Shown here: piece by piece, positions 6,621 to 48,620 of the stretch
Layout of the letters: the number at the start of each line of letters is the position of its first letter
Position numbering within the stretch: the first letter of the stretch is position 1
NCBI RefSeq assembly: GCF_002899715.1
Contig: NZ_PPEK01000005.1
Span: forward strand, 1 to 64,000
DNA from: Enteroscipio rubneri
GTDB taxonomy: Bacteria; Actinomycetota; Coriobacteriia; Coriobacteriales; Eggerthellaceae
Length of the DNA: 64,000 nucleotides
Direction of reading: 5' to 3'
Notes under the pieces: model-generated
What the model saw: the letters and a program-made list of their open reading frames with translations, nothing else
What the model was told of the DNA's origin: nothing
Database searches by the model: none
Made by a program: the position numbers and the translations under genes

Positions 6621-6640
6621 ATTCTCGCCCTCCTCGATTT

Positions 6641-6659: not shown

Positions 6660-6720
6660 GCTTGCAGTCTACATGCGCGGGTCATCCACGGTTTTCCAAT
6701 GAGCTCTGATGCATCGGCCC

Positions 6721-7221: not shown

Positions 7222-7233
7222 TGCTGCTCCTTT

Positions 7234-7671: not shown

Positions 7672-8054
7672 GGTGGTTCCTTTCGCCAAAGGTACGGGCC
7701 GTGCGGCAAGACGGTGCCACACGGCCCGCGAGGAGGACCGGCATTATGCCGGCTGGATGCATGATGGGGTATCTGTCACTCGTCCATCAGGTTGCTTGCG
7801 CCCGCGCTCGGATTGCGCGGCGCGGGGCGAGCACGGCTGCGCATGTGAGCATTTCGCCATAGTTATATGGGCATCCTGACAGGGGGTGGCTGTAAGGCTA
7901 AAGCTCTTCGACAGGGTTCGAGTTCGCATGTCGAACTGTGAGAACGGGAAGGGAAGCGGTTCCTGTCAACGTGTCATTGACGGGCTGATAGGCTGCGGAT
8001 CACGCGATGGGCGCGCGCCGCCGATGGGAAGCCCGGGTCAGCGTCTCAGGTCGA
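7672..8054. other. 383-base gap where the head module would be expected
   Basis: No convincing gene is visible on either strand. There is a 9-bp stem (7695-7703 with 7720-7728, CGGGCCGTG/CACGGCCCG) just upstream of the tail completion gene. The longest minus-strand frames (for example 61 codons at 7744-7929) have no ribosome site. In siphophages this junction between replication and tail genes normally holds terminase, portal, protease, capsid and connectors, so the gap may be a deletion scar. Confidence 0.6.
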
Positions 8055-10097: not shown

Positions 10098-10119
10098 TGC
10101 GCGTCCCTTTCCCCGGGTG

Positions 10120-10716: not shown

Positions 10717-11129
10717 GTGTCCGACTCCTTGCGCGCATGTCGCCAAGTCCGTGCAGCGGGGGTTCGGCCTGTTATGCGACGGAACCAGATCCGGACGAGG
10801 GCGGCGCCGGAGGGGGAGTCGAGATCGCGCTGGTAATGAGGCGTGCCGATAGCTTCGGCGAGTTCGGGTTCGTCCATGAGGAGCAGGCGAGACAAACAAG
10901 GCCACCAAACCGGCTTTGCGCCACATGCGAGCGCCGCTCTTCGGATGCGCTCGGCGTTTGCCGATTCCGGCCGAGAGGAGATCCTGCAGACTTGTTCGAG
11001 CAGCTGGGCGTAATTCGTCCGCAAGAGGAAGGGACTTTGGCTTGCAGCCCAGCGGACGGCTTCCTCCGCGTCGTCCAGGTGCGATGTCGAGACGATCTCC
11101 GCGACGAGCGCGGCTTTTCCGGGCATCAT
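10713..11129 (-). CDS. Hypothetical phage early protein
   Basis: This 138-residue protein begins MMPGKAALVAEIVSTSHLDD. It is Ala/Arg-rich and mostly helical, with WAASQSPFLLRTNYAQLLEQ and GAKPVWWPCLSRLLLMDE segments. Its start overlaps the excisionase-like gene stop and its stop overlaps the next start, so it sits inside a tightly coupled early operon. No known domain is recognised. Confidence 0.65.
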   Translation of the reverse strand: MMPGKAALVAEIVSTSHLDDAEEAVRWAASQSPFLLRTNYAQLLEQVCRISSRPESANAERIRRAALACGAKPVWWPCLSRLLLMDEPELAEAIGTPHYQRDLDSPSGAALVRIWFRRITGRTPAARTWRHARKESDT

Positions 11130-11368
11130 ACCGATGTTCCGATGTCTGAGGCGTGCATTGCATCGAACACGTCGACCATGCTGTTCTCAATCCAGTCGTC
11201 CATGATCGCCTCGGTCACGAAGTATCCCCGCACAGCCCCTCTTCTCATCTTGGCGTGGAGTCGGCCCGCTTTTATCTCGGTGTACAGCACGGTTTCGGGC
11301 ACGTCCCAGAGCCGAGCAGCCTCCGGAATGCGGTACAGCTTGTTTCTCACGGGCGGCTTTGCCGTCAT
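11126..11368 (-). CDS. Excisionase-like small DNA-binding protein
   Basis: This 80-residue protein starts at MTAKPPVRNKLYRIPEAARL with AAGGAGAG upstream; a longer frame back to 11437 lacks a ribosome site. The region RIPEAARLWDVPETVLYTEIKAGRLHAKMRRG is a MerR/Xis-type winged helix fold as in phage excisionases and helix-turn-helix domain 17 proteins. It is the second gene after the Cro-like repressor. It likely assists the integrase in excision or acts as an early regulator. Confidence 0.7.
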   Translation of the reverse strand: MTAKPPVRNKLYRIPEAARLWDVPETVLYTEIKAGRLHAKMRRGAVRGYFVTEAIMDDWIENSMVDVFDAMHASDIGTSV

Positions 11369-11402
11369 AGGTTCTCTCCTTGCATATAAGACAAATATAA
11401 AT

Positions 11403-11624
11403 TTACTCAAAGGGTAAAAAAATATCATCGACGGCATCGTGGATTATGCGCACGCTATATCGGTTCAGATTCGGCAGAATCAACTCGATCATATGCAGGT
11501 TAATGCGGTCTGGATGAAGCTCGAGTTGTCGGTACGTATAGGGGTCAAGGCCGATGATCCGCGCGATGTCAGTGCTTTGATAACCGGAGACGCTACGAGC
11601 TATCTTTAAAAAATCTTGTCCCAT
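11403..11624 (-). CDS. Cro-like phage repressor (small HTH protein)
   Basis: This 73-residue protein begins MGQDFLKIARSVSGYQSTDI, with a compact helix-turn-helix (STDIARIIGLDPYTYRQLEL). It is the first gene of the leftward early operon and divergent from the CI-like repressor, the position of Cro in lambdoid switches. AGGAGGTGAGG precedes the ATG. The gene is more AT-rich than its neighbours, in line with the AT-rich switch region next to it. Confidence 0.7.
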   Translation of the reverse strand: MGQDFLKIARSVSGYQSTDIARIIGLDPYTYRQLELHPDRINLHMIELILPNLNRYSVRIIHDAVDDIFLPFE

Positions 11625-11639
11625 ACCTCACCTCCTCGC

Positions 11640-11700
11640 TTACAGACAATAATAAATTTACACTATAGCAAAGTCAATAAGACGTATATAATAAATTGCC
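11640..11700. promoter_or_regulatory. Lysogeny switch region: divergent promoters and operator-like repeats
   Basis: For the leftward (cro) operon a near-consensus promoter is visible on the minus strand: TTGACT at 11677-11672 and TATTAT at 11654-11649, 17 bases apart. A plus-strand TATAAT lies at 11687-11692 for the repressor gene; its -35 is weak. The 10-mer ATAATAAATT occurs twice in direct orientation (11649-11658 and 11688-11697), one copy over each -10, which suits operators for CI and Cro. Operator assignment is inference. Confidence 0.65.
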
Positions 11701-11732
11701 AGACAGATTGAAATGTACCGATGGAGTCAGTT

Positions 11733-12434
11733 ATGAAGCCTTTGTCCGAAGCGGAGATACAGGATGTGCTCATTGAAAATCTGAAGGCGCTGATGAGCTT
11801 CGAGAACGTATCCCAAGCCGAGATCGCTCGAAGATCGAGCATCGAGAAACAGACGGTTTCGTCTTGGATGCGGGGCGTGTCGTTCCCGTCGGCCAGGAAC
11901 ATCAAGAGCCTGACCGAGGCCTTCGGTCTCACCACCGACGATCTGCTCAGCAACGAATGCGGCCTGGCCTCCCGCAGGGGTAAGGAGCGACCGATTCGCG
12001 AGTACGAATACGCCGTGATGTCGACAATGGCACCGGTATACGGGCGTATTGCGGCAGGCGACCCTCTGGAGATGATGGTCGACCACGACGAGGTGGCCTA
12101 TTTGCATCCTGACGTGGCACAGCGGCATCCCGACGGCTTTTTCTTGACGGTGTCGGGCGATTCCATGGACAAGATCATGCCAGACGGGTCCCTCGCATTC
12201 GTCGATCCCCGCGCAGCTGTGGCGAACGGAGATGTCGCGGCGATAACGGTGAACGGGGACGATGCCACGATAAAGCGCATCTTCTTCGCCGGCGACACGG
12301 TGGTTCTCCATCCGGAGAGCTCGAATCCGGCCCACAGGGATCGCGCGATCGATTCCAACGACCCGGACGCGCCCGCCGTGCGCATTATCGGAAAAGTCGT
12401 CTGGCACTACCTCGTCGACGACGATCGTCTGTAG
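11733..12434 (+). CDS. CI/LexA-like phage repressor (XRE HTH plus S24 peptidase)
   Basis: The protein is 233 residues from the ATG at 11733 (GGAG 7 bases upstream); an ATG at 11721 in frame has no site. The N-terminal helix-turn-helix is SQAEIARRSSIEKQTVSSWM. The C-terminal S24 domain has catalytic Ser in VSGDSMDKIMPDG and Lys in DDATIKRIFF, and a likely Ala-Gly self-cleavage site in GRIAAGDPLE. It should maintain lysogeny and be inactivated by RecA-stimulated self-cleavage after DNA damage. All key residues are present, so the switch appears intact. Confidence 0.9.
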   Translation: MKPLSEAEIQDVLIENLKALMSFENVSQAEIARRSSIEKQTVSSWMRGVSFPSARNIKSLTEAFGLTTDDLLSNECGLASRRGKERPIREYEYAVMSTMAPVYGRIAAGDPLEMMVDHDEVAYLHPDVAQRHPDGFFLTVSGDSMDKIMPDGSLAFVDPRAAVANGDVAAITVNGDDATIKRIFFAGDTVVLHPESSNPAHRDRAIDSNDPDAPAVRIIGKVVWHYLVDDDRL

Positions 12435-12453: not shown

Positions 12454-13545
12454 ATGGCTCGCAGCACATGGGGTAGCATCAGGCAGAAGGATCGCGGCGT
12501 CTGGGAAGTGCGCTATCCTCTTCCACGCGACCCTTCGACGGGGAAACGGCGCCAGGGCAGCAAAACGGTGCGCGGCACGCGGAAGGCTGCCGAGCAGCTG
12601 CTGGCCGAGCTCAGGGCCGAGCATGGCGCGGATGGGGATTCGGTGGGCCCCTGCATGACGGTTCGGCGTTGCTGGACGCGGCACTACCGCCCCTATATCG
12701 GCGACCTCTCTCCTTCGACCGTCAAAGGATATGAAAGCGCCTACGCATCGCATATCGAGCCGACGTTCGGCTGCCGCATTATGGAGGATATCGGACCTGC
12801 CGAGGTTCAGCGCTGGTTGGATGAGATGTCGTACGGTGCCGCGAAGAAGAGCTTCGCGGTTATGCGCGCCCTCTTCAATTTCGCAGCCGATCAGGAACTT
12901 CTAGTGAGAAACGTAATGGATCGCCGCTTCAAGCTTCCGAGGAGATCTTCTGCGGCGCGCATGGTTTGCGAAGACATCCACGATCTCGGCACGTTGAAAG
13001 CCGTGCTCGCGGACTGTCGGGGAGAGGTGTGGGAGCCGGGGTTCATCTTCTCAGCGTTCGGGGGGCTGCGCCGTTCGGAGGCGTGCGGGGTGCAGCGGCC
13101 CGATGTGGAGTTCGCCGAGGGGTATGCGATTGTGCGGGTTCGCCGAGGGGTGCAGTGTATCGACGGGGTTGTGCGCGAGACGAGTGTGAAGACGGAGGCG
13201 AGCGAGCGCATGGCGATCATCCCTCGGCCGTTTTCCGACCGGCTGCTCGAACTCGTCCGATCACGCCCCGGCGAACTCTGGATGCTCGATGACGGTTTCG
13301 GCAATCCGCTGAATCCGGACACGCTCGCGAAGGCGTACCAGCGCTGGTTCCAGCAAAGCGCGCACCGGTACATACCGTGGAAGAATCTGCGGAACAGCTA
13401 CGCGACGATGCTGCACGAGGCGGGCGTGGAGCTGGGCATGATCGCCAAGCTTCTCGGGCATTCAACGCCCGTCACCACGTTCAAACACTACGACAAACCG
13501 AGCGCGGAGGCATTGGCGGCCATAGTCAGCAGACTCGGTGACTGA
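12454..13545 (+). CDS. Phage tyrosine integrase
   Basis: This 363-residue site-specific recombinase has an N-terminal arm-binding part (SIRQKDRGVWEVRYP), a SAM-like core-binding domain (about 75-160) and a catalytic domain. The first catalytic Arg is in FGGLRRSEACG, the Lys in SVKTEASER, the second Arg in WKNLRNSY, and the His and Tyr in LLGHSTPVTTFKHYD. The usual His of the HxxR box is replaced by Lys (KNLR), which occurs in some active family members. It starts 19 bases after the repressor gene and ends near tRNA-Lys, its likely target. Confidence 0.92.
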   Translation: MARSTWGSIRQKDRGVWEVRYPLPRDPSTGKRRQGSKTVRGTRKAAEQLLAELRAEHGADGDSVGPCMTVRRCWTRHYRPYIGDLSPSTVKGYESAYASHIEPTFGCRIMEDIGPAEVQRWLDEMSYGAAKKSFAVMRALFNFAADQELLVRNVMDRRFKLPRRSSAARMVCEDIHDLGTLKAVLADCRGEVWEPGFIFSAFGGLRRSEACGVQRPDVEFAEGYAIVRVRRGVQCIDGVVRETSVKTEASERMAIIPRPFSDRLLELVRSRPGELWMLDDGFGNPLNPDTLAKAYQRWFQQSAHRYIPWKNLRNSYATMLHEAGVELGMIAKLLGHSTPVTTFKHYDKPSAEALAAIVSRLGD

Positions 13546-13667
13546 GTATTGCGAGGGGCGGCCCGTTCAGGCGAGGTCGGGGAAGGCGCCCGGATGCGTC
13601 GTAGAACTTTGCCTGATCGGTGGGATCGCGTGGAATGGGGACTGTCGGCGGCGATCCGCCACACAAC

Positions 13668-13695
13668 AAAAAAGCCAGAGGTTCAACCCTCTGGC
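13668..13695 (-). terminator. Rho-independent terminator after tRNA-Lys
   Basis: On the minus strand GCCAGAGG and CCTCTGGC pair around a 6-base loop and are followed by six T residues. It lies 12 bases beyond the CCA end of tRNA-Lys. If the attachment core is within the tRNA, this terminator lies on the phage side of the junction. Confidence 0.85.
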
Positions 13696-13707
13696 CTGCG
13701 GTTTCGA

Positions 13708-13783
13708 TGGTGGACCGTGTAGGATTCGAACCTACGACCTTGGGATTAAGAGTCCCCTGCTCTACCAACTAAGCTAACGGTCC
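13708..13783 (-). tRNA. tRNA-Lys (anticodon CTT)
   Basis: A complete cloverleaf is visible. The 7-bp acceptor GGACCGT/ACGGTCC and anticodon stem GGGGA/TCCC enclose loop CTCTTAA, giving anticodon CTT. The T loop is TTCGAAT and the 3' end CCA is encoded. The 3' end faces the prophage integrase, so the 3' half is the likely attachment core. Confidence 0.95.
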
Positions 13784-13869
13784 ATATCAAGCTGCCTTCG
13801 ACACGCAAAGCGATTTGATATGTTAATCGATGCCTTCTGCCTTTGCAAGCATTTTTTCAAAATTCGCGC

Positions 13870-13947
13870 TGGGGTGGATGATGGGACTCGAACCCACGAC
13901 CTCCAGAGCCACAATCTGGCGTTCTAGCCAACTGAACTACACCCACC
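13870..13947 (-). tRNA. tRNA-His (anticodon GTG)
   Basis: The anticodon stem CCAGA/TCTGG encloses loop TTGTGGC, giving anticodon GTG. The extra 5' G(-1) opposite C73 is encoded, as is CCA. It lies about 87 bases upstream of tRNA-Lys on the same strand, and the two could be co-transcribed. Confidence 0.95.
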
Positions 13948-14173
13948 AAGGCGCAAGGTGGAAGTATACGGATTTTTATGTGCGAGTGCAAGAGGATTAT
14001 GGACAAATTGTATCAGCCATCCTGCAAATAGGCGTCGACGTGCGGCTATCGAGTAGTATGGGATCGTAAACGATGTCGAAGCGGCTCGTCGAGATGCCTG
14101 CGAATGCAGGGTCTTCGGCATCTTCCAGGGCAGGCGCAAAGCTTTCCCGTGCAAAAACCGAGGAGCGACAAAA

Positions 14174-15718
14174 GTGGATACTAAGCAATCGTCTGAGAAG
14201 CGGTTCGCCCTCTTGATCGATGCCGACAACGTGTCGGCCAAGTACATAAAGCCCATCACCGACGAGCTGTCGAAGTACGGCACCGTCACCTACAAGCGCA
14301 TCTACGGCGATTGGACGCTCACGCTCCACGCTAAATGGAAGGACGCGTTGCTGGAGAACTCCATCACGCCCATCCAGCAGTTCGGCTACACGCAGGGCAA
14401 GAACGCCACCGACTCGGCCATGATCATCGACGCGATGGACATCCTGTACACGCGCTCGGTAGAGGGCTTCTGCATCGTGTCGAGCGACAGCGATTTCACG
14501 CGCCTGGCCAGCCGCATCCGCGAGAGCGGCCTCACGGTCATCGGCATGGGGGAGAAGAAGACGCCCACGCCGTTCCGCAAGGCGTGCGACATCTTCACCA
14601 CGCTCGAGCTGCTGCTGCCGAATGCGGGGTCGAAGCCGAACGGGCGCTCCAAAGGCGGTCGCTCGGAACAGTCCGGTGCAGGGAGCGTGCAGAATGCGGG
14701 CCCGTCGATCGAGGAGATCGAACAAGCCGTGGCGAACATCGTCACGGACAATCAGAACAACGGCAAATCCACGGGCCTCGGCGAGGTGGGCAGCCGCCTC
14801 TTGAAGCGCTATCCCGACTTCGACGTACGCAGCTACGGGACGAACCAGCTGAAGAAGCTCCTCGACGAGTTCGCCGGCATTGTTGTCATCAAGGATGGCA
14901 GCAACGTGTCTGTGGAGCTCGCCGAGGACAAGGACCAGACAAAGGACGCACGCGAGAAACGCATCGAATCGTCCGCACGCGATAAAGGCGAGCGCGATGC
15001 CGACCGGCGTCCGGAGCGCGAGGCCAGACCATTGCGGAACTCCCGAACTGTTGGGCGGGATGTGCCGAGGAGCGCACCGTTCGTACCGGATACGACGCAG
15101 ACCGACGAGGACGCGCCCGATGATGCGTCGAAGGAGGATCTGCTGAAGCAAGGCGGCCAAAATGCGATCCCCGAAGGCACGGCTCCGGTTTCTCGGCCGT
15201 CGAAGGGAAGGCGCGCTCCGCGAGGCCGTTCCGCGCGCATCGAGCGAAAAGAAGAAGGAGCTCTCGAGCGCGAGCAGTCGGTGGAACCTGCTTTCGAGCA
15301 GGATACGGGATCTGAACAGCCTGAGCTTGCAGCTGAGCCTTCGACCTCGGCATCGCAGCACGGAGCGGTCGGGTCGAGCGAACAGCGCGCCGTCGACAAT
15401 AGGCCGGGCCGAGCGGTTCGGAGAAAGACAGCGGCGAAGCGAGTTCCGCCTGCCGGCGAAGAAAGCGTCGCGGATCCTCAGAAGATGCTGCAGCCTGCCG
15501 TTTCCGACGGCCCTGAGAGTTTCATTCGCCAAATCGTTGACGGTGCAGGTGAAGAGGGAGTGGAGCTTTCGGTGCTCGGCAAGCGGGTTCGCGGGAAGTT
15601 CCGCGCGTTCAAGCTGCGCGACCTCGGTTACACGCAGTTTCGCTCCTATGTCGGCGATTTGGATGGCATCGAACTCGACCAGCGTGGCAAAGTCTTTTTC
15701 GCTTGCGTCGCGCGCTGA
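14174..15718 (+). CDS. NYN-domain nuclease with two LOTUS/OST-HTH domains
   Basis: This 514-residue protein starts at GTG 14174 with AGGAG 8 bases upstream. Residues about 10-150 form a NYN (PIN-like) domain with the acidic pattern LLIDADNVS, TDSAMIIDAMDIL and SSDSDFTRLASRI, as in the LabA/Limkain family; these Asp residues would bind the metal. A LOTUS domain follows at about 178-252 (SYGTNQLKKLLDEF). After a charged low-complexity linker (253-435) a second LOTUS-like domain closes the protein (about 436-514, LGYTQFRSYVGDLDGIEL). LOTUS domains bind RNA, including G-quadruplexes, so an RNA-directed nuclease or regulator is likely. It stands alone between the tRNAs and a DUF4230 gene. Confidence 0.88.
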   Translation: MDTKQSSEKRFALLIDADNVSAKYIKPITDELSKYGTVTYKRIYGDWTLTLHAKWKDALLENSITPIQQFGYTQGKNATDSAMIIDAMDILYTRSVEGFCIVSSDSDFTRLASRIRESGLTVIGMGEKKTPTPFRKACDIFTTLELLLPNAGSKPNGRSKGGRSEQSGAGSVQNAGPSIEEIEQAVANIVTDNQNNGKSTGLGEVGSRLLKRYPDFDVRSYGTNQLKKLLDEFAGIVVIKDGSNVSVELAEDKDQTKDAREKRIESSARDKGERDADRRPEREARPLRNSRTVGRDVPRSAPFVPDTTQTDEDAPDDASKEDLLKQGGQNAIPEGTAPVSRPSKGRRAPRGRSARIERKEEGALEREQSVEPAFEQDTGSEQPELAAEPSTSASQHGAVGSSEQRAVDNRPGRAVRRKTAAKRVPPAGEESVADPQKMLQPAVSDGPESFIRQIVDGAGEEGVELSVLGKRVRGKFRAFKLRDLGYTQFRSYVGDLDGIELDQRGKVFFACVAR

Positions 15719-38061: not shown

Positions 38062-38370
38062 ATGAGCGAGATCGTAACCTCTTCGGATTTTCAGTCCAAA
38101 GTGCTCGACGCGCAAGGCCCCGTGCTTGTGGACTTCTTCGCAACATGGTGCGGACCATGCAAAATGCTCGCTCCGACCATCGACGAGGTGGCCGGCGAGA
38201 CGGCGGGCAAAGCGGCCGTGTACAAGCTCGATATCGACCAGAGCCCCGACATTGCTCAGCGCTACGGCGTGATGAGCGTGCCGACTCTGATGGTGTTCGA
38301 GAATGGCCAGGTGAAGAAGCAGGCCGTGGGCGTGCAACCCAAGCAGAACATCCTCTCGATGTTGGCGTAG
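38062..38370 (+). CDS. trxA: Thioredoxin
   Basis: This 102-residue protein has the active site WCGPC (29-33) in FFATWCGPCKM and the cis-proline in MSVPTLMVFENG. AAAGGAGG sits 7 bases before the ATG at 38062. It donates electrons to reductases such as the MsrAB encoded at 46.1-47.3 kb and is recycled by the thioredoxin reductase at 47.7 kb. Single gene with its own terminator. Confidence 0.95.
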   Translation: MSEIVTSSDFQSKVLDAQGPVLVDFFATWCGPCKMLAPTIDEVAGETAGKAAVYKLDIDQSPDIAQRYGVMSVPTLMVFENGQVKKQAVGVQPKQNILSMLA

Positions 38371-38585: not shown

Positions 38586-39194
38586 TTAGGCTTTTACCAC
38601 CGGCAGGTAGAAGACGCGCGGAGAGTTTCCGCTTTCGGGAAGGTAGACGTCGCCGCCCCGCTTCTCCACCATCTTCTTGATCTCGTCCAAGTCGCCGAAC
38701 ACGCGCGCCTCAGCCATGCAGGCCCGCACGCACGCCGGCTGGTCGTTTCCGGCTTCGCGATACTTGACGCACAGGTCGCACTTATCGACGCATTTCTCGG
38801 GCATGTCGGCGTAGGCCACCTGCTCGTACTCGTTCAGCTCGTCGCCGAAGTAGCCTCGCTTATCCTCGACGGCATAGCGGGCGCCATAGGGGCAGGCTTC
38901 CACGCAGAGTTTGCAGCCGATGCATTTCTCCTTGTCGATCACCACGATGCCGTCCTCTTCGCGACGGTAGGTGGCGCCTTCCTGAGGGCACGCTTCGACG
39001 CAGGAGGGGTTCTCGCACATCATGCACAGCATGGGGCGGATGGTGCGAACCGCATTGGGATAGGTGCCTTCGCTGCCGCGCTCCACATGGGACCGCGTGA
39101 CGCCGGGAGGCGTGCCATTAGCCTGCTTGCAAGCCACCGAGCAGCCGTGGCAACCGACGCATTTCTCCAGATCGATAACGAATCCGTAATCCAT
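38586..39194 (-). CDS. 4Fe-4S ferredoxin subunit of a molybdopterin oxidoreductase (DmsB-like)
   Basis: This 202-residue protein (ATG at 39194, AGGAGG upstream) has four Cys clusters: CVGCHGCSVAC, CMMCENPSCVEAC, CIGCKLCVEACPYGARY and CVDKCDLC...CVRAC. This is the four-cubane layout of DMSO-reductase-family electron-transfer subunits. It passes electrons between the quinone pool side and the catalytic subunit encoded 13 bases upstream. No membrane anchor (DmsC/NrfD type) gene follows, so the electron donor is not evident here. Confidence 0.93.
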   Translation of the reverse strand: MDYGFVIDLEKCVGCHGCSVACKQANGTPPGVTRSHVERGSEGTYPNAVRTIRPMLCMMCENPSCVEACPQEGATYRREEDGIVVIDKEKCIGCKLCVEACPYGARYAVEDKRGYFGDELNEYEQVAYADMPEKCVDKCDLCVKYREAGNDQPACVRACMAEARVFGDLDEIKKMVEKRGGDVYLPESGNSPRVFYLPVVKA

Positions 39195-39207
39195 GGATAC
39201 CAGCCTC

Positions 39208-41982
39208 CTAGCCGATCTTCTCAAGCTTGCAGCGGACACACTGTTCCACGCCGGAGCACAGATGGTCCATGCGCTCGGGGACGCCGGCGGGGACGAGATG
39301 GTTCACAGCCGTGCCCTTGCTCTTGCCGATGGGCTGGAACTCGCTCTTCGCGTTGAGGTGCCCGCCCACGGAAGCGACGCATTCGGGATGCACGAGCCCG
39401 GTGACCACGGCGATGCCCTCAACCGTGGCGCCTTCGCGGTTGGACAGACGCACCTTATCACCGGATGCGATGCCCTTTGCGGCGGCCGTCTGTTCGTTGA
39501 TCTCGAGCAGATAGGTGGTGTCGTCCATCTCGTTGATCTCGTTGATCCAGGCGTTCTCCACCTGCCAAGTGTCGGTGTTGATGGCGTTGGTCCAGTACAC
39601 CGGGAACATGTCGAAACCCTCTTCTTCGACCTCGTGGTCGATGCAGGCCTTCCATTCCGGTAGCGGTACGTAGTCGTCGGTCTCCCAGGGGATGCCGAGC
39701 TTGGCAACTTCAGCCTCCACCTTCTCCTTCGCTTCGAACATGAAGTCAAAGTACAGCGGAATGCGGCCTTCCTGGCCGGCGGCGAATACGTACACCTCCT
39801 CGGGGGTGCGCTCGCGCGTCAGCACGCCGTGCTCGCGGAACCACTCGACGCCGCGGCCTTCGCCGGCTAGCGACTTGAGGGCGGCGTCGCACACCTTTTC
39901 GGCGGTGATCTGCTCGGATTCGCTCAGCTTGTTCTCGTCGGTGAGGCGGTAGTAGTCGTTGAGTGCACCGGCGAACGCTGCGGTCGAACCGGACTTTTCG
40001 GCCATTGCACCGAACGAATCGAGCGCGGAGGGGCAGCCGTCCTTCGCCTCAACAATGGGCATGCGGCCGGCCACGATGTAGGGAACCTCGAGCGCGCCAG
40101 GCACGCGGTGGTTGTTGAACGACAGCGGCAGGGGATCGAAGCGCTCCAGATAGCATGGCTCCGGGATGATGAGGTCGTAGTAGTACGACGAGTCGTTCAG
40201 GTAGATGTCCATGGCGAAGATCCAGTTGAACGATTCGAGCACCTTGGCCTGGTAATCATGGTTGCACCAGTTCTTCAGCGGGTTCGACGCCATGCAGAAC
40301 GCCACTTCGGAAGGCTTGGTCTTGTAAATGTCGGGCTGCACTTGGGATATGTAGCCGAAGTGCTGGTCCATGGTGAGGGGCTGCAGCTCCTCGAGCGCCA
40401 GGGTGGTGGGCGTGTAGCTCATCTCGCGGACCTTCTTGTAGTGCGAGCCCTGGTCGGGATACCCATGCGCCATACCAAGCTCTTCGATGAGGCCGTCTTC
40501 CTCCCACACGGAGAACTCCCAAGAGTGGACGTTGTCGCCCTCGTAGAAGCCGTGGGCGTTCTTGGTGTAGTAGCCCAGGTAGCCGCCGCGCGAGAACGTG
40601 GAGCCCACGAGCGTGTTCAGCTGCAGGATGGCCCAATGGGACAGAAAGCCGTGCTTGTGGCGGGCGATGCCGGAGAACGTGTCCACCGCGACAGGGCGGT
40701 AGGGCACGGTCAATCCGTCGACCTCGACCGTCTCGCCGATGCAAGCGGCCTCACCGAACTCCTTGGCCAGGCGACGGATGGTGTCGGCCGGGACCGTGGA
40801 TACCTGCTCGGCGTATTCGGGCGTGTAGGTGGCGACATGCTCCTTGAACACGCTGAAAGCGGTGCGGACCTTCTTGCCGTCAACGTCGAACTCGCCTTCC
40901 AGGGCCGGTGCGGCGGCTTTGTCGTAGGTTGCGGGAGCGTTCGCATCGCCATCCCAGTACAGAGCCTTGTTGCCGTTGGCGGCGTCGCGCATGACGCGAC
41001 CGGTGTCCGGGTCGATGAGCGAGGGGGCGTTCGTGCGGTTCGTCAGGAACTCGGCGTCGTAGATGCCGTACTCGTTGACGAGCAGGTTCGCCATGGCGAG
41101 CGCTACCGCGGCGTCCGTGCCGGGGCGGATGGGCACCCATTCGTCGGCTTTCTCCGCCGAGCCCGACATGTGCGGGTCGAAGTTCACGAGCTTGCAGCCG
41201 TTCTTGCGGCTCTCGGCGAAGATCTTGGCGGTGATGCTCGTCCCGTGGCGCGTGGCCACGCCGGCCTGCGTGCCGAACTGCATGAGGTACTTGCAGCTGC
41301 CGTAGTCGGGCATGGCGTTACCGCAGCCTGTGAGCAGCGACGAGATGGTGTGCGTGGGCGCGCCGCAGATGTCGGCCTTGAACGGCACGGGGATGTTGCC
41401 CCGGCTGCCGAGCCAGTTCATGGAGTCGATCCACGAGATAATGCTCGTGATGAGGGCGAACACGATAACGGGGTTGCCCTTCTCCTTCTGCTCGTCGAGC
41501 TTCTCGTTGATGAGGTCGTACGCCTCGTCCCAGCTGATCTCCTCCCAGCCGGGATCGATGCCGACGCCCTTCTCGGGATTGGTGCGCTTGAGTGGCTTGG
41601 TGATGCGGTTCTCATCGTAGAGCTGCATGATGCCCGCGGTTCCCTTGCCGCACAGGTGGCCCCAGCCAGCCGGGCTGCGGTCGTCGCCCTTGATCTCCAC
41701 GAGCTTGCCGTCGACGACGTGCCCGAGAATGCTGCAAGCGTTGAAGCACATGTTGCACTGCGACGGCAGCCATTCGCCTTCGTCAGCCGTTTTATCGGTA
41801 CCGGCTTTGCCGGACTCCTCCGACGCGCAGGCGCCGAGCGTTCCTGCAACGCCGAGCGCGCCGACGCTCAGTGCGCCGGCTTTGACGAAGCTGCGGCGGC
41901 TGAGGTTGGCGTGTCCCTGTGCGCGCTCCGCCGCCGCGTTCTCCGCGTCGGCGATCACGTGCGTGCTGCTCTCTTTGCTCAT
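39208..41982 (-). CDS. Tat-exported molybdopterin oxidoreductase, DMSO reductase family
   Basis: This 924-residue protein begins with a twin-arginine signal (SRRSFVK, residues 28-34) and an ACASEES lipobox-like cleavage region. A [4Fe-4S] motif Cys76-x2-Cys79-x3-Cys83-x27-Cys111 precedes the molybdopterin-binding domains. Family signatures include WDEAYDLINEKL, DICGAPTHTISSLLTGCG and NPLKNWCN, and the C-terminal dinucleotide-binding domain. It works outside the membrane with the ferredoxin subunit. Related gut Eggerthellaceae enzymes reduce or dehydroxylate dietary and host compounds. The substrate of this one cannot be read from sequence. A LuxR-type membrane regulator is divergent from it. 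Confidence 0.92.
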   Translation of the reverse strand: MSKESSTHVIADAENAAAERAQGHANLSRRSFVKAGALSVGALGVAGTLGACASEESGKAGTDKTADEGEWLPSQCNMCFNACSILGHVVDGKLVEIKGDDRSPAGWGHLCGKGTAGIMQLYDENRITKPLKRTNPEKGVGIDPGWEEISWDEAYDLINEKLDEQKEKGNPVIVFALITSIISWIDSMNWLGSRGNIPVPFKADICGAPTHTISSLLTGCGNAMPDYGSCKYLMQFGTQAGVATRHGTSITAKIFAESRKNGCKLVNFDPHMSGSAEKADEWVPIRPGTDAAVALAMANLLVNEYGIYDAEFLTNRTNAPSLIDPDTGRVMRDAANGNKALYWDGDANAPATYDKAAAPALEGEFDVDGKKVRTAFSVFKEHVATYTPEYAEQVSTVPADTIRRLAKEFGEAACIGETVEVDGLTVPYRPVAVDTFSGIARHKHGFLSHWAILQLNTLVGSTFSRGGYLGYYTKNAHGFYEGDNVHSWEFSVWEEDGLIEELGMAHGYPDQGSHYKKVREMSYTPTTLALEELQPLTMDQHFGYISQVQPDIYKTKPSEVAFCMASNPLKNWCNHDYQAKVLESFNWIFAMDIYLNDSSYYYDLIIPEPCYLERFDPLPLSFNNHRVPGALEVPYIVAGRMPIVEAKDGCPSALDSFGAMAEKSGSTAAFAGALNDYYRLTDENKLSESEQITAEKVCDAALKSLAGEGRGVEWFREHGVLTRERTPEEVYVFAAGQEGRIPLYFDFMFEAKEKVEAEVAKLGIPWETDDYVPLPEWKACIDHEVEEEGFDMFPVYWTNAINTDTWQVENAWINEINEMDDTTYLLEINEQTAAAKGIASGDKVRLSNREGATVEGIAVVTGLVHPECVASVGGHLNAKSEFQPIGKSKGTAVNHLVPAGVPERMDHLCSGVEQCVRCKLEKIG

Positions 41983-42123
41983 ATCCTCTCCTCTTTGATC
42001 GAAGTGCTCTTCTCTCGTCCTTGCCCCTGCATCGGCTTTTGGGCACCACCTCCCCCGCGTATCGCAGCCCTTGTCCGATGCTCGAAGACTAGCATCTTGC
42101 GCGGCACGGTTTCGAATACGCAG

Positions 42124-42157
42124 GGATGATTCGGTGAAATCATCCTTCTGGGATGAT
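42124..42157. promoter_or_regulatory. Operator-like inverted repeat between oxidoreductase and LuxR genes
   Basis: GGATGATT (42124-42131) and AATCATCC (42138-42145) form a perfect 8-bp inverted repeat with a 6-base spacer. A third half-site GGATGAT follows at 42151-42157. It sits in the 257-base divergent region about 140 bases from the oxidoreductase start. It is a good candidate binding site for the LuxR regulator. A TACAAT at 42190-42195 could be the regulator's -10. Confidence 0.5.
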
Positions 42158-42239
42158 GCCCCTCAGATGCGCTATCCTGTGTTTGCGATTACAATGGGCG
42201 AGCCAGGGGGGCCGCCAAAGGGGGGTGGGAGCCGTGCCC

Positions 42240-43736
42240 GTGCTTCAGAAAGTCAAGAAGATGTTCGACTTCGACGTGCGTCCAGCCATCGTCGTCGGCC
42301 TTGCTCTGCACTGGTCGTGGATTTGGATACTTTTCTGGAGCTCGTCGTTCTACCCCGTGTTCGAGTCTGCGGGATTGCAGCACGGCGGCGCGCTACTCGT
42401 AGACCCGCTGTGGTTCTTCTCGCTTCTGTCGAACTTCGCGACGCCTATCGTGTTGTTTTTCCTCGGCAAGCGCCTTGGCTCGGTTGGGTGGAGGGTGCCG
42501 CTTATGGTGGCCGCCGCCGTACTCACATCGCTGGGCACGTTTATGGTGGCCTATCCCGATGCATTGTTCGCGCCGGGCGCACGATTCGCGGGCTATGTGG
42601 CAGGCGCGGTGCTCACCGGAGCAGGATCGGCTATTGAGTTTGTGCTCTGGGGCGAACTGCTCGCCATCCTCGGAATGCGCCAAACGGTGGTGTACGGCGT
42701 GGCGGCCACCATCGTCGGCGGCCTTTTCTATATGGTTTCGATATTCTTCGCCCCTTCGGTCGTACAGTTCGCGGTGGCGTTGTTCCCTCTGTTGGAAATG
42801 GGCCTGTTCTGGTTCCAGCGCGACGTCGTCCTCCGCTACCGCGCGGGCACGTCCCAGCTTGCGCGTGAGGAGCCGGGCTCGGTGGGCAAGCCGGCGCGCG
42901 TCAAGTACCGCAAGGATCTGATCGGGCTTATCGTGATCTCGATGTTCTTCGCTACGTCGTACGGCGTGATGAAGGGCATGTTCGTCTTCGCGGGTGCCGA
43001 TCTGCTGGCGTTGCGCGACATCATCAACATCGTTGCTCTCGTCTTGGGGGCGCTGACCATCTTGCTGACCATGAGCGTGTTCAAGATGGACTTCAACCAT
43101 CTGACCTACCAGGTGGCGTTGCCTCTCATGGCCATGGGCTTCGTTTGCGTGGCGTTGCCCGGATCGTTCGAGGTTCTGGGATTCTTCTTCCACCAGCTGG
43201 GCTACGAGTATTTCTATATCATCCTTTGGGCGCTTTGGCCCGCGCTCGCGCGCAAGAACAAACATGTGCCCGCCATGAAGTTTTGCGCTGCAGGCATCGC
43301 CTCCATCCAGGCGGGCCAGCTCGTGGGCTCGACCATCGGCGCTTCGCTCATGGAAGCCGCTGCCAGCCGCTACGAGGTGGCGATGATATCGGTGGTCGCG
43401 GTGTTCGTCATTCTCCTCGTTGCGCTGTTCGCGTTCGGCAATTCGCTGTCCCAGGTGGGATGGGGCGTGTTGCGACCGTGGGGCGATGTGGTGGCGCCAG
43501 AATCCAAGTTCCGTAAGGTGTGTGACGCCATTGCCTCGACGCGCGGCCTGTCGCCGCGCGAGGCGGAAGTATTCCACCTGCTGGCCAAGGGACGCAACTG
43601 CGAGTACATCAGCACCCAGCTCGTTGTGACCGAGGCGACTACCAAGACGCATATCCGCAAGGTGTACCGCAAGCTTGGCGTACACTCTCAGCAGGCGCTG
43701 CTCGACATCATCGAATACGAACGCAAGAACATGTGA
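42240..43736 (+). CDS. Membrane LuxR-family regulator (multi-pass membrane domain plus LuxR HTH)
   Basis: The protein is about 498 residues. GTG 42240 is chosen because GGGAG lies 8 bases upstream; ATG 42261 is also possible. About twelve membrane segments (residues 15-420), resembling an MFS transporter, are followed by a LuxR-type helix-turn-helix at the C-terminus (about 440-498, GLSPREAEVFHLLAKGRNCE, TTKTHIRKVYRKLGVHS). This fusion is abundant in Eggerthella relatives, where it is commonly adjacent to reductase genes. It probably senses a substrate at the membrane and controls the divergent molybdopterin oxidoreductase operon. Confidence 0.88.
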   Translation: MLQKVKKMFDFDVRPAIVVGLALHWSWIWILFWSSSFYPVFESAGLQHGGALLVDPLWFFSLLSNFATPIVLFFLGKRLGSVGWRVPLMVAAAVLTSLGTFMVAYPDALFAPGARFAGYVAGAVLTGAGSAIEFVLWGELLAILGMRQTVVYGVAATIVGGLFYMVSIFFAPSVVQFAVALFPLLEMGLFWFQRDVVLRYRAGTSQLAREEPGSVGKPARVKYRKDLIGLIVISMFFATSYGVMKGMFVFAGADLLALRDIINIVALVLGALTILLTMSVFKMDFNHLTYQVALPLMAMGFVCVALPGSFEVLGFFFHQLGYEYFYIILWALWPALARKNKHVPAMKFCAAGIASIQAGQLVGSTIGASLMEAAASRYEVAMISVVAVFVILLVALFAFGNSLSQVGWGVLRPWGDVVAPESKFRKVCDAIASTRGLSPREAEVFHLLAKGRNCEYISTQLVVTEATTKTHIRKVYRKLGVHSQQALLDIIEYERKNM

Positions 43737-43751: not shown

Positions 43752-44531
43752 TTAGCAGCTCGCCGTCGGCTGCGTGCGCATTCCTCCAATCCATGCGCGA
43801 TAGAAGTCCCAGCGGCCTTCATCATCGGTCGCGGTGAGAAGATAGGTGCCCGCGACGTTTTCCGGCTCAACCCCGCTGGCGCGCGCCCGGTCTAGGAGCT
43901 CGTCGACGTTGCTTGCATCCATGGAAGGTGCAACCTTGAGCAGGCATTCGAGGCAGCCCGTATTGTGCTCAGCCTCGATGCGTTGCCAAAGAACGGTTTC
44001 TTTGCCGGGGTGGGCGTCGGCCACTGCTTCATGCACGAGGGCGGGATTACGCGCGTCGATGAACACACCGTAGCGCCAGGGCTCCTCGACAAGAACCTTC
44101 CAAGGCTCGGGAGCATCGTAGTCGATGGCGCTGAGGCGGGCGATGGCGGGTCGGGCAGGGCGCATGCCCGAGTGCCGCAGCTGCTCAGCGGCGGCGTTGA
44201 GCGCGCGCTGCTGGGCAAGCCTGGCGCGCATGGCTTCCAGCTCGGCAATGCGTTGCTCGATGTTCGCCTCGGTAAGGGCGAGCGCGGCATCGAGGCCCTT
44301 CGCGCTCAGCGTGCGATAGGATTCGAGCTCCTTCGCAGGAACGCCGAGTTTGCGGTAGAATGCGATCTCGCTCGCATGGATGAGGTCGTGAACCGTATAC
44401 CGGCGGTAATCGTTCGCCGCGTTGCGCCCGGCGCTTATCAAGCCGCGGCTCTCCCAGTACCGCAGCGTGGAAGGAGCGACGCCAAGATAGCGCGCCGCGT
44501 CTTTGATGTCGTAGAACCTGGGCTCTCCCAT
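43752..44531 (-). CDS. MerR-family regulator, likely multidrug-responsive
   Basis: This 259-residue protein starts at ATG 44531 (AGGAG upstream). The N-terminal MerR helix-turn-helix is YDIKDAARYLGVAPSTLRYW ESRGLI; a coiled dimerisation helix follows (about 85-130). The C-terminal part (about 140-259, EPWKVLVEEPWRYGVFIDAR) resembles GyrI/BmrR-type ligand-binding domains. It is divergent from a MATE efflux gene across a MerR-type promoter, so it likely activates that pump when a drug or metabolite binds. Confidence 0.85.
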   Translation of the reverse strand: MGEPRFYDIKDAARYLGVAPSTLRYWESRGLISAGRNAANDYRRYTVHDLIHASEIAFYRKLGVPAKELESYRTLSAKGLDAALALTEANIEQRIAELEAMRARLAQQRALNAAAEQLRHSGMRPARPAIARLSAIDYDAPEPWKVLVEEPWRYGVFIDARNPALVHEAVADAHPGKETVLWQRIEAEHNTGCLECLLKVAPSMDASNVDELLDRARASGVEPENVAGTYLLTATDDEGRWDFYRAWIGGMRTQPTASC

Positions 44532-44628
44532 GGGCGCTCCTGATGCGAGGGGCTGTGATCCGGAAGGCCCTTTCCTGATCGCACCCGTCCTCTTTTTGAA
44601 GATTAGAAGAAGGATCGGATAGGACATC

Positions 44629-44659
44629 TTTACCTTCAAGCGACTTTAAGGTTTAGAGT
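44629..44659 (+). promoter_or_regulatory. MerR-type promoter/operator driving the MATE gene
   Basis: TTTACC (44629-44634) and TAGAGT (44654-44659) are separated by 19 bases, the elongated spacer typical of MerR-regulated promoters. Between them ACCTTCAAG (44632-44640) and CTTTAAGGT (44644-44652) form an inverted repeat with one mismatch and a 3-base centre. It lies 49 bases before the MATE start. Confidence 0.8.
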
Positions 44660-44707
44660 ACCATCCGGTCGAATCAAGGGCAAGGTCCAAGACGGAGTCG
44701 AATACTT

Positions 44708-46048
44708 ATGATCAAGAGAAGCATGCTTAAAGAGTACCTGCGCTACATCCTGCCCACGATGCTCACGTTCACGCTGGCAAGCGTCTACAGCATCGTGGAC
44801 GGCATGTTCGTGGGGCACGCGGTGGGTGACGCGGGCGTCGCCGGCATCAATGTGGCGTTCCCGCTCGTGGCCTTCGTGATGGCCGTGGGCACGGGCATCG
44901 GCATGGGCGGCGGCGTGATCTCGTCCATCGCGCGCGGCGCGGGCGACGAGGCGAAGTCGCGGCGCGCCGTGGGCACGACGTTCATCATGCTGCTCTTGGC
45001 GGCGCTGCCCGTCATGGCGTTGCTGCTGTTCGCGGCCGAGCCTATCTGCCGACTCCTGGGAGGCCAGGGCGGCACGCTCGCGCAGGCTGTGGCGTACACG
45101 AGCGTCATCGCATGGGGCGTCCCGTTCCAGATATTCGTCACGGGCTGTACGCCCCTCATCCGCAACCAGGGGCGCGTGGGCTTCGCCATGGCGGTGCAGG
45201 TGTTCGCGGGCCTGATGAACGTGGCATTGGACTATGCGTTCGTCATGCTGCTGGGCTGGGGCACAGCCGGCGCCGCCGCGGCCACGGCGGTGTCGCAGGC
45301 TGCGGCGTTCGTGCCGGTGCTCGCGTTCTTCCTGCTGAAGAAGAACCGCATTGCGCGGGCCGACCTGCGTCCCGACGGCAAAATCGCAGCCCATGCGCTG
45401 AAGCTGGGCATGGCGCCGTTCGGCCTGACGCTTTTGCCCGAGGCCACGGTCGTGGCCATCAATATCAACCTGTCGATCTACGGCGGCGAGACGGCTCTCG
45501 CGGCCTACGCCGTGGTGTCCTACACCGCCTGCGTCATCCAGATGCTCATCCAGGGCGTGGGCGACGGCTCGCAACCGCTCATCTCCAAGCACTACGGCGC
45601 GGGCGACGCCGACGGCGTGCGGCGGTTTAGGAACACGAACTACCTCATTACCATCAGCTTGGGCGCGCTGGGGCTCTTGGCCATGTACCTGCTGCGCAAC
45701 CAAGTGCCGCTTCTGTTCGGCTCGTCGGCGGAGACGGCCGCCATCGTGGCCTGGGCGCTGCCGATTTTCTCTACGGCCTATGTGTTTTACGGTTTTACGC
45801 ATGCATCCACCTCGTACTTCTATGCGGTGGACGATGCGAAGGCCTCGAGCGCCATCGTGTACGGTGAGGCGGTGCTCGTCGTGCTGGTGGTGTTCGGTAT
45901 CGCCCAGGTGGCCGGCGTGGACGGCATCTGGCTCTCCGTGACCATCGTGCAGACGGTGCTGGCCTGCGCGGCTGGCGCGCTTCTGCGCTTCCGCCATCGC
46001 CGTAGGGCTGCCGCGACGGCTCCTCGTCCTGCGGGCGAGGCCTGCTAG
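44708..46048 (+). CDS. MATE-family multidrug efflux transporter
   Basis: This 446-residue protein has twelve predicted membrane segments in two MatE halves (about 10-170 and 235-400). It begins MIKRSMLKEYLRYILPTMLT, with SVYSIVDGMFVGHAVGDAGV in the first half and IQGVGDGSQPLISKHYGAGD in the second. These match MepA-like MATE exporters, which expel cationic drugs or metabolites using Na+ or H+. The C-terminus ends in an Arg/Ala/Pro tail. Expression is probably controlled by the divergent MerR protein. Confidence 0.92.
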   Translation: MIKRSMLKEYLRYILPTMLTFTLASVYSIVDGMFVGHAVGDAGVAGINVAFPLVAFVMAVGTGIGMGGGVISSIARGAGDEAKSRRAVGTTFIMLLLAALPVMALLLFAAEPICRLLGGQGGTLAQAVAYTSVIAWGVPFQIFVTGCTPLIRNQGRVGFAMAVQVFAGLMNVALDYAFVMLLGWGTAGAAAATAVSQAAAFVPVLAFFLLKKNRIARADLRPDGKIAAHALKLGMAPFGLTLLPEATVVAININLSIYGGETALAAYAVVSYTACVIQMLIQGVGDGSQPLISKHYGAGDADGVRRFRNTNYLITISLGALGLLAMYLLRNQVPLLFGSSAETAAIVAWALPIFSTAYVFYGFTHASTSYFYAVDDAKASSAIVYGEAVLVVLVVFGIAQVAGVDGIWLSVTIVQTVLACAAGALLRFRHRRRAAATAPRPAGEAC

Positions 46049-46148: not shown

Positions 46149-47342
46149 TCAGCGCATGACGGGCTCCTGCTCCACGAGAGGCTTCAGATATCCGTAGCCC
46201 TCTTCGTCCATGCGCGCGAGCGGCACGAATCGCAGTGCGGCACCGTTGATGCAGTAGCGCAGACCGCCCGCATCGGCGGGACCGTCGGTGAAAACATGGC
46301 CCAGGTGGGCGTCTCCCGCACGGCTGCGCACTTCGGTGCGCAGCGTGCCGAAGCTGCGGTCGAGGCGTTCGGCCACCACGTCGGATGCGATAGGGCGTGA
46401 AAACGCGGGCCAGCCGCAGCCCGAATCGTACTTGTCGGAGCTTGCAAACAGCGGCTCGCCGCTCGTGACGTCCACGTAAATGCCCGGCTCGAACAGGCGG
46501 TCGTAAGGGCTTGAGAAGGGGCGCTCGGTGGCGTTTTCGCGCACGACGCGGTACTGCTGGTCGCTCAGCGAACGGCGGAGTTCGGCGTCGTCGGGCGCCG
46601 CGTAGACGCGCGAGGCAATGGCCGCGGCCGCTTCCTCGGCAGTGGTCGCCGCTGCGGGCTCCTTGGCGCCCGCCGGCATCGCAGCCCCGTCCGAACGGCT
46701 GCTCGGATGCTCGGATTCCGCTGGGTGCAGACCGCCGTCGACGGCTTCGCAGAGCCCGTCGTATTGTACGCAGGCGCGTCCCTCGGCAAGGCCCATGCGC
46801 TTGACGAATGCATCGGCTGCGCGCATGTCGATGTGACAGTATCCCCCAGGGTTCTTCGTGAGGTAATCCTGATGGTATTCTTCGGCCGGGTAAAATCCGT
46901 CGAGCGGCTCCACTTCGGTCACGACGGGGTCAGTGTAGCGCGCCTGCTGCCGGCGCACGGCCGATTCGATGGCAGGTAGGTCGGTCTCGTCCTGCCAGAA
47001 GATGCCGCTGCGGTACTGCGTGCCGCAATCGTTGCCCTGGCGATTGACACTCGTGGGATCGATGGCTTCGAAAAAGCCATCGAGGAGCATTTCGGTGGGC
47101 ATGATGCGACGGTCGTAGGTGACCGCGACCGTTTCGGCGTGCCCGGTGTTCCATCGGCACACGTCCCGGTAGGTGGGATTCTCGGTCGATCCGTTTGCGT
47201 AGCCGACTATTGTCTCACGGACGCCGGGCAGCCGCCTCAAGAAGGCTTCAAGCCCCCAGAAGCAGCCGCCGGCCAGGTAGATGGTATGCAGGTCGGCGCC
47301 TCTCGCGTCGTCGCGCCGTTCGGCGTCGTTGGCAGGGTCCAT
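46149..47342 (-). CDS. msrAB: Bifunctional peptide methionine sulfoxide reductase MsrA/MsrB
   Basis: The protein has 397 residues. The N-terminal MsrA domain (about 17-185) has catalytic Cys27 in [13 protein letters not shown] and [10 protein letters not shown] low-complexity linker (about 205-245) leads to the MsrB domain (about 250-385) with [24 protein letters not shown] and [11 protein letters not shown]. It repairs both S and R epimers of methionine sulfoxide using thioredoxin. No signal peptide is seen, so it is cytoplasmic. AAAGGAG precedes the ATG. It is divergent from thioredoxin reductase, its electron supply. Confidence 0.93.
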
Positions 47343-47663
47343 GGTTGAGCTCCTTTCGATGGGGACATCGTACCGCGCAAAGCGCTATCCGCCTTCCCCT
47401 CATCCGATCCGTCACGTGCGCGTTGTCGGTTTGCCCTGCGCGCTCGTACTCCTCTGGCGTGCGGCGGAGGCAAGCGCGCGAGCCGGGCGAGGTGGCGTCT
47501 TCAAGCTCGAGGGTTCAGCTCGGTATCGGCTCGTCGCCCTTTTGCTGCTTTTCCGGTAACCTTTTCCCGAAGATTCTGCGCAGAATAGCAGCGGCGACCT
47601 ACGCACGGCTCCATGCGCCCTATACTGCGACGAAACATCGGGCTTTCACAGGAGGCTTGCACC
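47343..47663. promoter_or_regulatory. Divergent msrAB/trxB intergenic region with a perfect palindrome
   Basis: The 321-base region holds ATTCTGCGCAGAAT (47573-47586), a perfect 14-base palindrome. It lies 35 bases upstream of TATACT (47621-47626), a plausible -10 for trxB. The palindrome is a candidate site for a redox or stress regulator shared by the two genes. No other feature is visible. Confidence 0.45.
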
Positions 47664-48620
47664 ATGGATACTGCACACCAGCAGGCTGCGACAGACGGAC
47701 AGGACCCCGTCATCGATCTTGCTGTCATCGGCGCAGGGCCGGCGGGTATGACTGCAGGGCTCTACGCTGCGCGGGCGGGACTCGACGTCGTGCTGTTCGA
47801 GCGCATATCGCCGGGCGGGCAACTTGCTCAGACCGAGCACATGGAGAACTATCCCGGCTTTCCCGACGGCGCGAACGGCTTCGAATTGGCGTTCTCGATG
47901 AAGCAGCAGGCCGATCGCTTCGGATGCCGTCATATCGGCGAGGAGGTGCTCTCCGTCGATTTCACCGTGAATCCCAAGGTGCTCAGGACCGCGTTCGGCG
48001 AATACCGGGCGAAAAGTGTCATTATCGCCACGGGCGCCCGCCCGCGCAAACTGGGCCTCGAATTGGAAGAAGAGCTGCAGGGCCGCGGCGTTTCGTACTG
48101 CGCCACCTGCGACGGTAACTTCTTCCGCGACAAGACGGCCATGGTGGTGGGCGGCGGTAACACGGCTGCAGGCGATGCCATCTACCTGTCGCGCATCTGC
48201 AAGAAGGTGTACCTCGTGCATCGGCGCGACAAGCTGCGCGCCACCGCCATCTATCACAAGCGCCTGGAGGATCTGCCAAACCTCGAGTTCGTATGGAACG
48301 CCGTTCCGCGCAAGCTCGTGGCCGAAGAGGGCGCGCTCGCTGGCGTGCGGGTGGAAATGCTTGCGACGGGCGAGGAACGCGACATCGCGGTTGACGGCCT
48401 GTTCGTTGCCGTGGGCACCGAGCCTAATACCGAGTTTCTGGACGACGCTCTCATGCGCGATGAGACCGGCTACATCGTGGCCGATGAGTCGGGTGCGACC
48501 GAGGTGCCCGGCGTGTACGCCGCCGGCGACGTGCGCACGAAGAGCCTGCGCCAGGTGGTCACCGCCGTGGCCGATGGCGCGCTGTGCGCCGAGGAGGCGG
48601 CCGAGTACTTGGCCATCTAG
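47664..48620 (+). CDS. trxB: Thioredoxin reductase
   Basis: This 318-residue protein starts at ATG 47664 (AGGAGG upstream). It has the FAD-binding GAGPAG motif near the N-terminus, the redox-active CATC in VSYCATCDGNFF, the NADPH-binding GGGNTAAGDA and the C-terminal FAD motif GVYAAGDVRTKSLRQVVTA. It is the low-molecular-weight bacterial type. It reduces TrxA with NADPH, feeding MsrAB and ribonucleotide reduction. Confidence 0.95.
   Translation: MDTAHQQAATDGQDPVIDLAVIGAGPAGMTAGLYAARAGLDVVLFERISPGGQLAQTEHMENYPGFPDGANGFELAFSMKQQADRFGCRHIGEEVLSVDFTVNPKVLRTAFGEYRAKSVIIATGARPRKLGLELEEELQGRGVSYCATCDGNFFRDKTAMVVGGGNTAAGDAIYLSRICKKVYLVHRRDKLRATAIYHKRLEDLPNLEFVWNAVPRKLVAEEGALAGVRVEMLATGEERDIAVDGLFVAVGTEPNTEFLDDALMRDETGYIVADESGATEVPGVYAAGDVRTKSLRQVVTAVADGALCAEEAAEYLAI

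Follow-up and report, generated by a model that had tools for sequence, protein, structure and literature searches.

The Locus and Its Conservation

The window, i.e., the whole stretch of 64,000 nucleotides analysed here, belongs to a genome of 2.83 Mb in 43 contigs that shares its GTDB family with E. lenta DSM 2243 and E. sinensis, in agreement with the Eggerthellaceae origin proposed in an earlier note on this DNA. The three genes which that note described between positions 38586 and 43736 were all found in place: a molybdoenzyme catalytic subunit (MopA), a ferredoxin and a divergent membrane LuxR regulator. The features of the locus are as follows.

38586..39194, minus strand: ferredoxin subunit with four [4Fe-4S] motifs, 203 aa, frame opening at 39239 (Pfam, alignment)
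39208..41982, minus strand: catalytic subunit MopA, a bis-MGD molybdoenzyme of 924 aa (Pfam, PDB matches, alignment)
41827..41898, minus strand: predicted Tat lipoprotein signal of MopA, from RRSF (residues 29-32) to the lipobox LGAC (Cys52) (motif; Cys52 invariant in the alignment)
42086..42094, minus strand: predicted extended -10 element TGCTAGTCT of the mopA promoter (fits the consensus; position conserved in four loci)
42124..42130, minus strand: predicted third operator half-site ATCATCC (conserved)
42139..42157, no strand assigned: predicted operator dyad ATCATCC-N5-GGATGAT (conserved inverted repeat)
42234..43736, plus strand: membrane LuxR with predicted MFS-fold domain and C-terminal LuxR HTH, frame opening at 42153, likely GTG start at 42234 (Pfam, tree, AlphaFold2/Foldseek)

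The start of the ferredoxin was corrected by alignment to 39194 (MDYGF...), 13 bases after MopA, and therefore the two genes do not overlap.

The unit formed by LuxR, MopA and the ferredoxin (FeS) occurs in eight genomes in total, the window's and seven more, with MopA identities of 71-90%. MopA orthologs are present in a second species of the genus, in E. sinensis DSM 16107 and in E. lenta DSM 2243 (at 790,061-792,760), and further in two MAGs, one of a mouse Adlercreutzia and one of a Coriobacteriales member, in G160, an Eggerthellaceae genome of 2.26 Mb, and in G132, where the locus is fragmentary; with the window's genome these make eight among 395 genomes of the order, a patchy distribution. 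Wherever an orthologous locus includes the region, the membrane LuxR gene and the MopA-FeS operon are divergently oriented, and the three-gene unit stays constant while its outer neighbours vary outside the genus. A MerR-MATE pair on the LuxR side and a thioredoxin on the ferredoxin side were considered as members of the unit and set aside, because they are missing from the orthologous loci beyond the genus.

The surroundings of the window locus have some traits of their own. At 43752-46048, a MATE-like exporter and a divergently oriented MerR regulator, the latter with a large C-terminal part, form a pair kept in the second species of the genus and not found next to the remaining orthologs. 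Moreover, a thioredoxin, a fused MsrA-MsrB-like protein and a thioredoxin reductase-like gene flank the locus on both sides (38065-38370 and 46149-48620), and their conservation with it is lost outside the genus.

Subunits, Probable Membrane Anchoring and Possible Maturation

MopA scores over the Pfam cut-offs for Molybdopterin, Molybdop_Fe4S4 and Molydop_binding, and the ferredoxin matches Pfam Fer4 families. The description of the pair as a Tat-exported catalytic subunit with a four-cluster ferredoxin holds: MopA carries the motif R29-R30-S-F, followed by the N-terminal [4Fe-4S] motif CNMCFNACSI and by the predicted molybdenum ligand Cys206 within DICGAPTH, and the 16 cysteines of the ferredoxin, all invariant in an alignment of nine homologs, correspond to four [4Fe-4S] sites. 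An AlphaFold2 model of the catalytic subunit, computed from four sequences, had a pLDDT of 31 and was set aside.

The same note had held that the pair lacks a membrane anchor. As regards genes this stands, for no NrfD gene lies beside the pair at any ortholog, the nearest on the window contig being about 82-87 kb away. The enzyme itself, however, carries a Tat lipobox and is probably held by a lipid. All seven complete orthologs carry RRxF and, 18-20 residues on, a lipobox (LGAC, LAGC or LVGC), and for this reason MopA is a probable lipoprotein, predicted to hold the pair on the membrane. Among six catechol dehydroxylases of E. lenta, enzymes that depend on an anchor subunit, five have no lipobox and one has a cysteine inside the hydrophobic stretch, none being convincing; the motif is also frequent in other Tat molybdoenzymes considered here, some of which have an NrfD partner.

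A further layer concerns sulfur transfer. Five of the eight orthologous loci include a linked gene for either FdhD or a NifS-type cysteine desulfurase: the desulfurase heads the operon in E. lenta, E. sinensis and G132 and lies 3′ of the ferredoxin in the Coriobacteriales MAG, and in G160 FdhD comes after the ferredoxin. The latter is the sole FdhD of its genome, where none of the ten molybdoenzymes tested exceeds a formate dehydrogenase cut-off. In the four genomes the desulfurase genes occupy two different positions (L019 8820-10019, L081 5564-7006, L085 1406-2842, L021 about 13433-14696).

FdhD and IscS place the sulfido ligand on the bis-MGD of formate dehydrogenases (PMC6239281); given this role and the gene linkage just described, a sulfido molybdenum ligand would be a reasonable guess for the present enzyme group. 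Counting against it, neither gene adjoins the pair in three loci, the window's and two others, and the FdhD proteins at 21-dehydroxylase-like clusters (L082 5841-6719, L049 11639-12415, and others) are devoid of the CxxC of E. coli FdhD, a motif reported not to be essential (PMC6239281).

The Place of the Enzyme Among Molybdoenzymes

A tree of 79 molybdoenzymes from the window genome, E. lenta and relatives was obtained by a quick maximum-likelihood search (LG+G4). The window orthologs form a single clade (SH-aLRT 100), the sister of which is a 23-member family (SH-aLRT 86), and the 30-row union of both has an SH-aLRT of 100. The 23-member family includes an E. lenta set at 2.872-2.877 Mb with the order FdhD - ferredoxin - MopA - SPFH. 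This order equals that of Elen_2451-2454, which others have shown to confer glucocorticoid 21-dehydroxylation (McCurry 2024, via PMC11835702 and PMC11748516), and the set is accordingly taken for the 21-dehydroxylase cluster, its MopA being presumably Elen_2453, as assigned from gene order and approximate position rather than from the locus tag. A single further FdhD exists in E. lenta, about 0.9 Mb from that of this set.

The window MopA is 53% identical to the presumed Elen_2453, a figure that does not fix the reaction, and the ferredoxins are 65% identical; catechol dehydroxylases of differing substrate have been split at a 72% cut-off (PMC11585353). The window enzyme and this E. lenta relative have in common the Tat lipobox, the motif CNMCFN.CSI and a molybdenum-ligand region of the form DICGAxxH (DICGAPTH in the window, DICGAGVH in the 21-dehydroxylase), as well as ArrA and PsrA as best PDB matches. 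They differ in context. SPFH and FdhD are encoded in the E. lenta cluster and NrfD upstream of it, with no adjoining membrane LuxR, whereas the window locus lacks all three of these genes but does have the divergent membrane LuxR; among its orthologs, FdhD occurs only in G160.

The catechol dehydroxylases of E. lenta at 603-664 kb sit in another clade, which includes an enzyme flanked by a LuxR and a LysR-like gene, an arrangement as at dadh. The best PDB match of one catechol dehydroxylase is acetylene hydratase (2e-42), a kinship already published (PMC7028382), and six E. lenta sequences of this type carry CKGPRH or close variants together with CRxCGKxECGV where the window enzyme has DICGAxxH and CNxCFNxCSI. 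The earlier note had associated the locus with catechol dehydroxylation and envisaged a phylogeny against characterised dehydroxylases; that phylogeny, once run, places the window MopA as sister to the 21-dehydroxylase family, outside the corticoid clade itself and well apart from the Dadh/Cadh clade. Tree, best structural matches and active-site motifs thus all favour the corticoid side, and by sequence the window enzyme is a relative of the corticoid 21-dehydroxylase, not of the catechol dehydroxylases.

Other molybdoenzyme loci of the window's genome may be recorded here. One of them (L049, G000:C1:416000-434000, genes 5525-12415) comprises NrfD, a GntR-type regulator, SPFH, MopA, FeS and FdhD, arranged as in the 21-dehydroxylase cluster of E. 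lenta, and hence the organism may convert corticoids to progestins. In another (G000:C12:13448-14965; L015, L030), the frame of a molybdopterin oxidoreductase contains a single in-frame TGA and probably encodes a selenocysteine formate dehydrogenase.

Three alternative identities must be weighed against this background. According to the first, the pair would be a respiratory reductase of the PsrA/PhsA/ArrA kind under the control of a membrane LuxR, with polysulfide, thiosulfate, arsenate or another such inorganic compound as its acceptor. The nearest solved structures are indeed PsrA (1e-39) and ArrA (9e-31), enzymes of sulfur or arsenic compounds, which counts against an organic acceptor; with these systems the window pair also shares a cysteine as molybdenum ligand and the association of a catalytic subunit with a four-cluster ferredoxin, and a cysteine desulfurase is gene-linked in some orthologs. 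PhsA is, furthermore, the best match among the curated NCBIfam families. None of these families is reached at its cut-off, however, and the distances are large (PhsA, 232 bits vs. 694; ArrA, 136 vs. 1600); the locus has no NrfD partner, a far closer relative (53%) acts on a steroid if its assignment to Elen_2453 by gene order is right, and the characterised members of the regulator family answer to organic substrates (PMC9734109). We therefore regard an inorganic acceptor as unlikely.

The second alternative stays within the substrate class of Elen_2453: the pair would either be a corticoid 21-dehydroxylase or dehydroxylate steroids with an overlapping specificity. The sister position, the 53% identity and the common motifs speak for it, but regulation and gene context differ, and both the window genome and E. 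lenta already hold a separate 21-dehydroxylase-type cluster, so that a second enzyme would more likely act on another substrate. We give this reading little credence.

As for the Dadh/Cadh/Hcdh type of catechol dehydroxylase known from Eggerthella, the resemblance lies in the bacterial family and the layout. The loci of Dadh, Cadh and eCadh in E. lenta, with their DadR/CadR-type membrane LuxRs (PMC7028382, PMC9734109, PMC11887054), likewise combine a Tat molybdoenzyme and a four-cluster ferredoxin with a divergent membrane LuxR and an intergenic dyad. Nevertheless, the catalytic subunit belongs to another clade, lacks the acetylene hydratase affinity and both CKGPRH and CRxCGKxECGV, has a lipobox and no anchor subunit gene, and, with 924 aa vs. 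969-1107 aa, is shorter than most catechol dehydroxylases; on these grounds the catechol identity was rejected and appears very improbable.

The Membrane LuxR and Its Predicted Operator

Pfam recognizes in the regulator nothing other than GerE/LuxR, with GerE at residues 466-518. The MFS-like sensor domain ascribed to it in the earlier note is nonetheless supported by modelling, as the AlphaFold2 model (mean pLDDT 75) is all-helical and gives 83 Foldseek matches to MFS transporters at E <= 0.001, e.g., MelB, FucP and VMAT2. With GerE and a predicted MFS fold, the protein corresponds to the 10-12-TM LuxRs (PMC9734109), defined by an N-terminal TM domain and a C-terminal LuxR HTH. Its start is most likely the GTG at 42234 rather than the ATG at 42153, because the latter is overlain by the predicted operator (42139-42157) and the same-genus ortholog starts at the position equivalent to 42234.

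Membrane LuxRs are an already known family (Dong 2022). They activate dehydroxylases upon exposure to the substrates of these, and E. lenta has 83 of them, 19 near molybdoenzymes (PMC9734109); both the regulator type and its layout with a molybdoenzyme being thus described, the window is one more case. The eight LuxRs of the orthologous loci constitute a single clade (SH-aLRT 100), separate from the other membrane LuxRs compared, in keeping with a dedicated regulator facing the pair, and the divergent layout fits ligand-specific induction. That the substrate is not readable from sequence, as was also anticipated, extends to the regulator: its closest paralogs in the window's genome adjoin flavoprotein genes, and their kinship therefore gives no hint.

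The intergenic regions of the eight loci are very different, yet each contains an inverted repeat (arms of 7 bp, spacer of 5 bp) and, 8 bp on, a third half-site. On the minus strand the window sequence reads ATCATCC-CAGAA-GGATGAT-TTCACCGA-ATCATCC, and that of E. lenta ATCCCCC-TGACA-GGGGTAT-TTTCGGGT-TGCCCCC. This putative operator was first spotted by eye and tested afterwards. Across the eight aligned sites, 91% of the dyad cells are paired, vs. 36-61% when the partner is slid by 1-3 bases. Two positions have been altered on both sides (A-T to C-G and T-A to C-G), and seven cells show compensatory change on both sides; none of 500 shuffles equalled the result. Scored locus by locus, the fixed architecture of dyad plus third half-site reaches significance by itself in no more than five of the eight, so that the argument depends on the dyad as aligned and on its compensatory changes. 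A predicted operator shared by all eight loci, with arms that co-vary between species, would be new: none such is reported in the founding paper on membrane LuxRs, and a literature text search retrieved none.

In the window's genus and in Eggerthella, an extended -10 element (TGCTAGTCT, TGCTATCTT or TGCTAGATT) lies 29-30 bp past the third half-site, a spacing compatible with an activator that binds immediately ahead of the mopA promoter. In turn, a recognition-helix position of the regulator is Glu in the four loci with CCCCC half-sites and Ala, Pro or Asn in the others, which is suggestive, over few sequences, of protein-DNA covariation. Against this conserved predicted operator and the one-clade divergent LuxR in eight of eight orthologous loci, the notion that the regulator is a chance neighbour without control over the pair is hardly credible, even if some adjacency is to be expected in a genome with at least 38 related LuxR regulators.

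Similar dyads exist between LuxR and several catechol dehydroxylases of E. lenta (ATCATAG..GTATGAT, ATCATGG..GCATGAT, ATCGTGC..GCACGAT). The pattern ATCAT-N9-ATGAT occurs 15 times in four genomes (G000, the window's own; G001; G031; and G096, taken to be E. lenta DSM 2243), vs. none for the reversed control pattern, and 11 of these occurrences map to the upstream end of a membrane-LuxR gene (e.g., G096:C1:635358-635376 and 642671-642689); since some are orthologous between two Eggerthella species, the independent cases are fewer, about seven. Moreover, the upstream regions of 25 other membrane LuxRs hold six perfect 7-5-7 dyads, against a mean of 0.9 and a maximum of 4 in 100 Markov controls; dyads matching at 6 of 7 positions show no excess over the Markov control in the same regions. 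ATCAT-N9-ATGAT is a candidate for a general operator of the membrane LuxR family.

A Proposed Mechanism

Taking the gene unit, clade, motifs, lipobox, MFS fold and operator covariation as computed here, we infer the ligand sensing, lipidation, sulfur transfer, electron donor and reaction type of the following succession of events. A ligand would bind the MFS-fold domain of the membrane LuxR, whose HTH would contact the three-half-site operator between the divergent genes and activate the mopA-fes promoter, a mode of action supported by the operator covariation. MopA would receive its bis-MGD, sulfur transfer being a probable part of this, and fold with the four-cluster ferredoxin before export by the Tat pathway. 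On the outer membrane face it would be kept by a lipid on Cys52, not by a membrane subunit, and there the MopA-FeS pair would receive electrons from a donor and reduce an organic acceptor, i.e., the inducer or a relative of it.

By analogy with the corticoid 21-dehydroxylase, whose kinship favours reductive dehydroxylation, the reaction is most likely the reductive removal of a hydroxyl group, or a similar C-heteroatom cleavage, on a specific non-catechol small molecule. Taken whole, a substrate-inducible terminal reductase of the membrane surface, with a LuxR switch, a lipid anchor and a non-catechol organic acceptor, is the reading that we prefer, with a confidence slightly above even. The more ambitious version, in which a LuxR-switched lipoprotein branch beside the 21-dehydroxylases would dehydroxylate a non-catechol host or dietary molecule and the operator would be a readable code for the whole family, is to be seen as tentative and, for the time being, rather doubtful.

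Significance

Eggerthellaceae possess many substrate-specific reductases that alter drugs, hormones and diet compounds. With the window enzyme ranged beside the corticoid dehydroxylases instead of in the catechol group, other compounds take priority for testing, and such testing is practicable because E. lenta DSM 2243, which is open to genetic manipulation, has an ortholog. Furthermore, an operator that can be read from sequence would link regulators to their enzymes and allow reporters to be built without guessing promoters. If a general operator code proved true, it would become possible to map from sequence what dozens of orphan regulators control in each genome.
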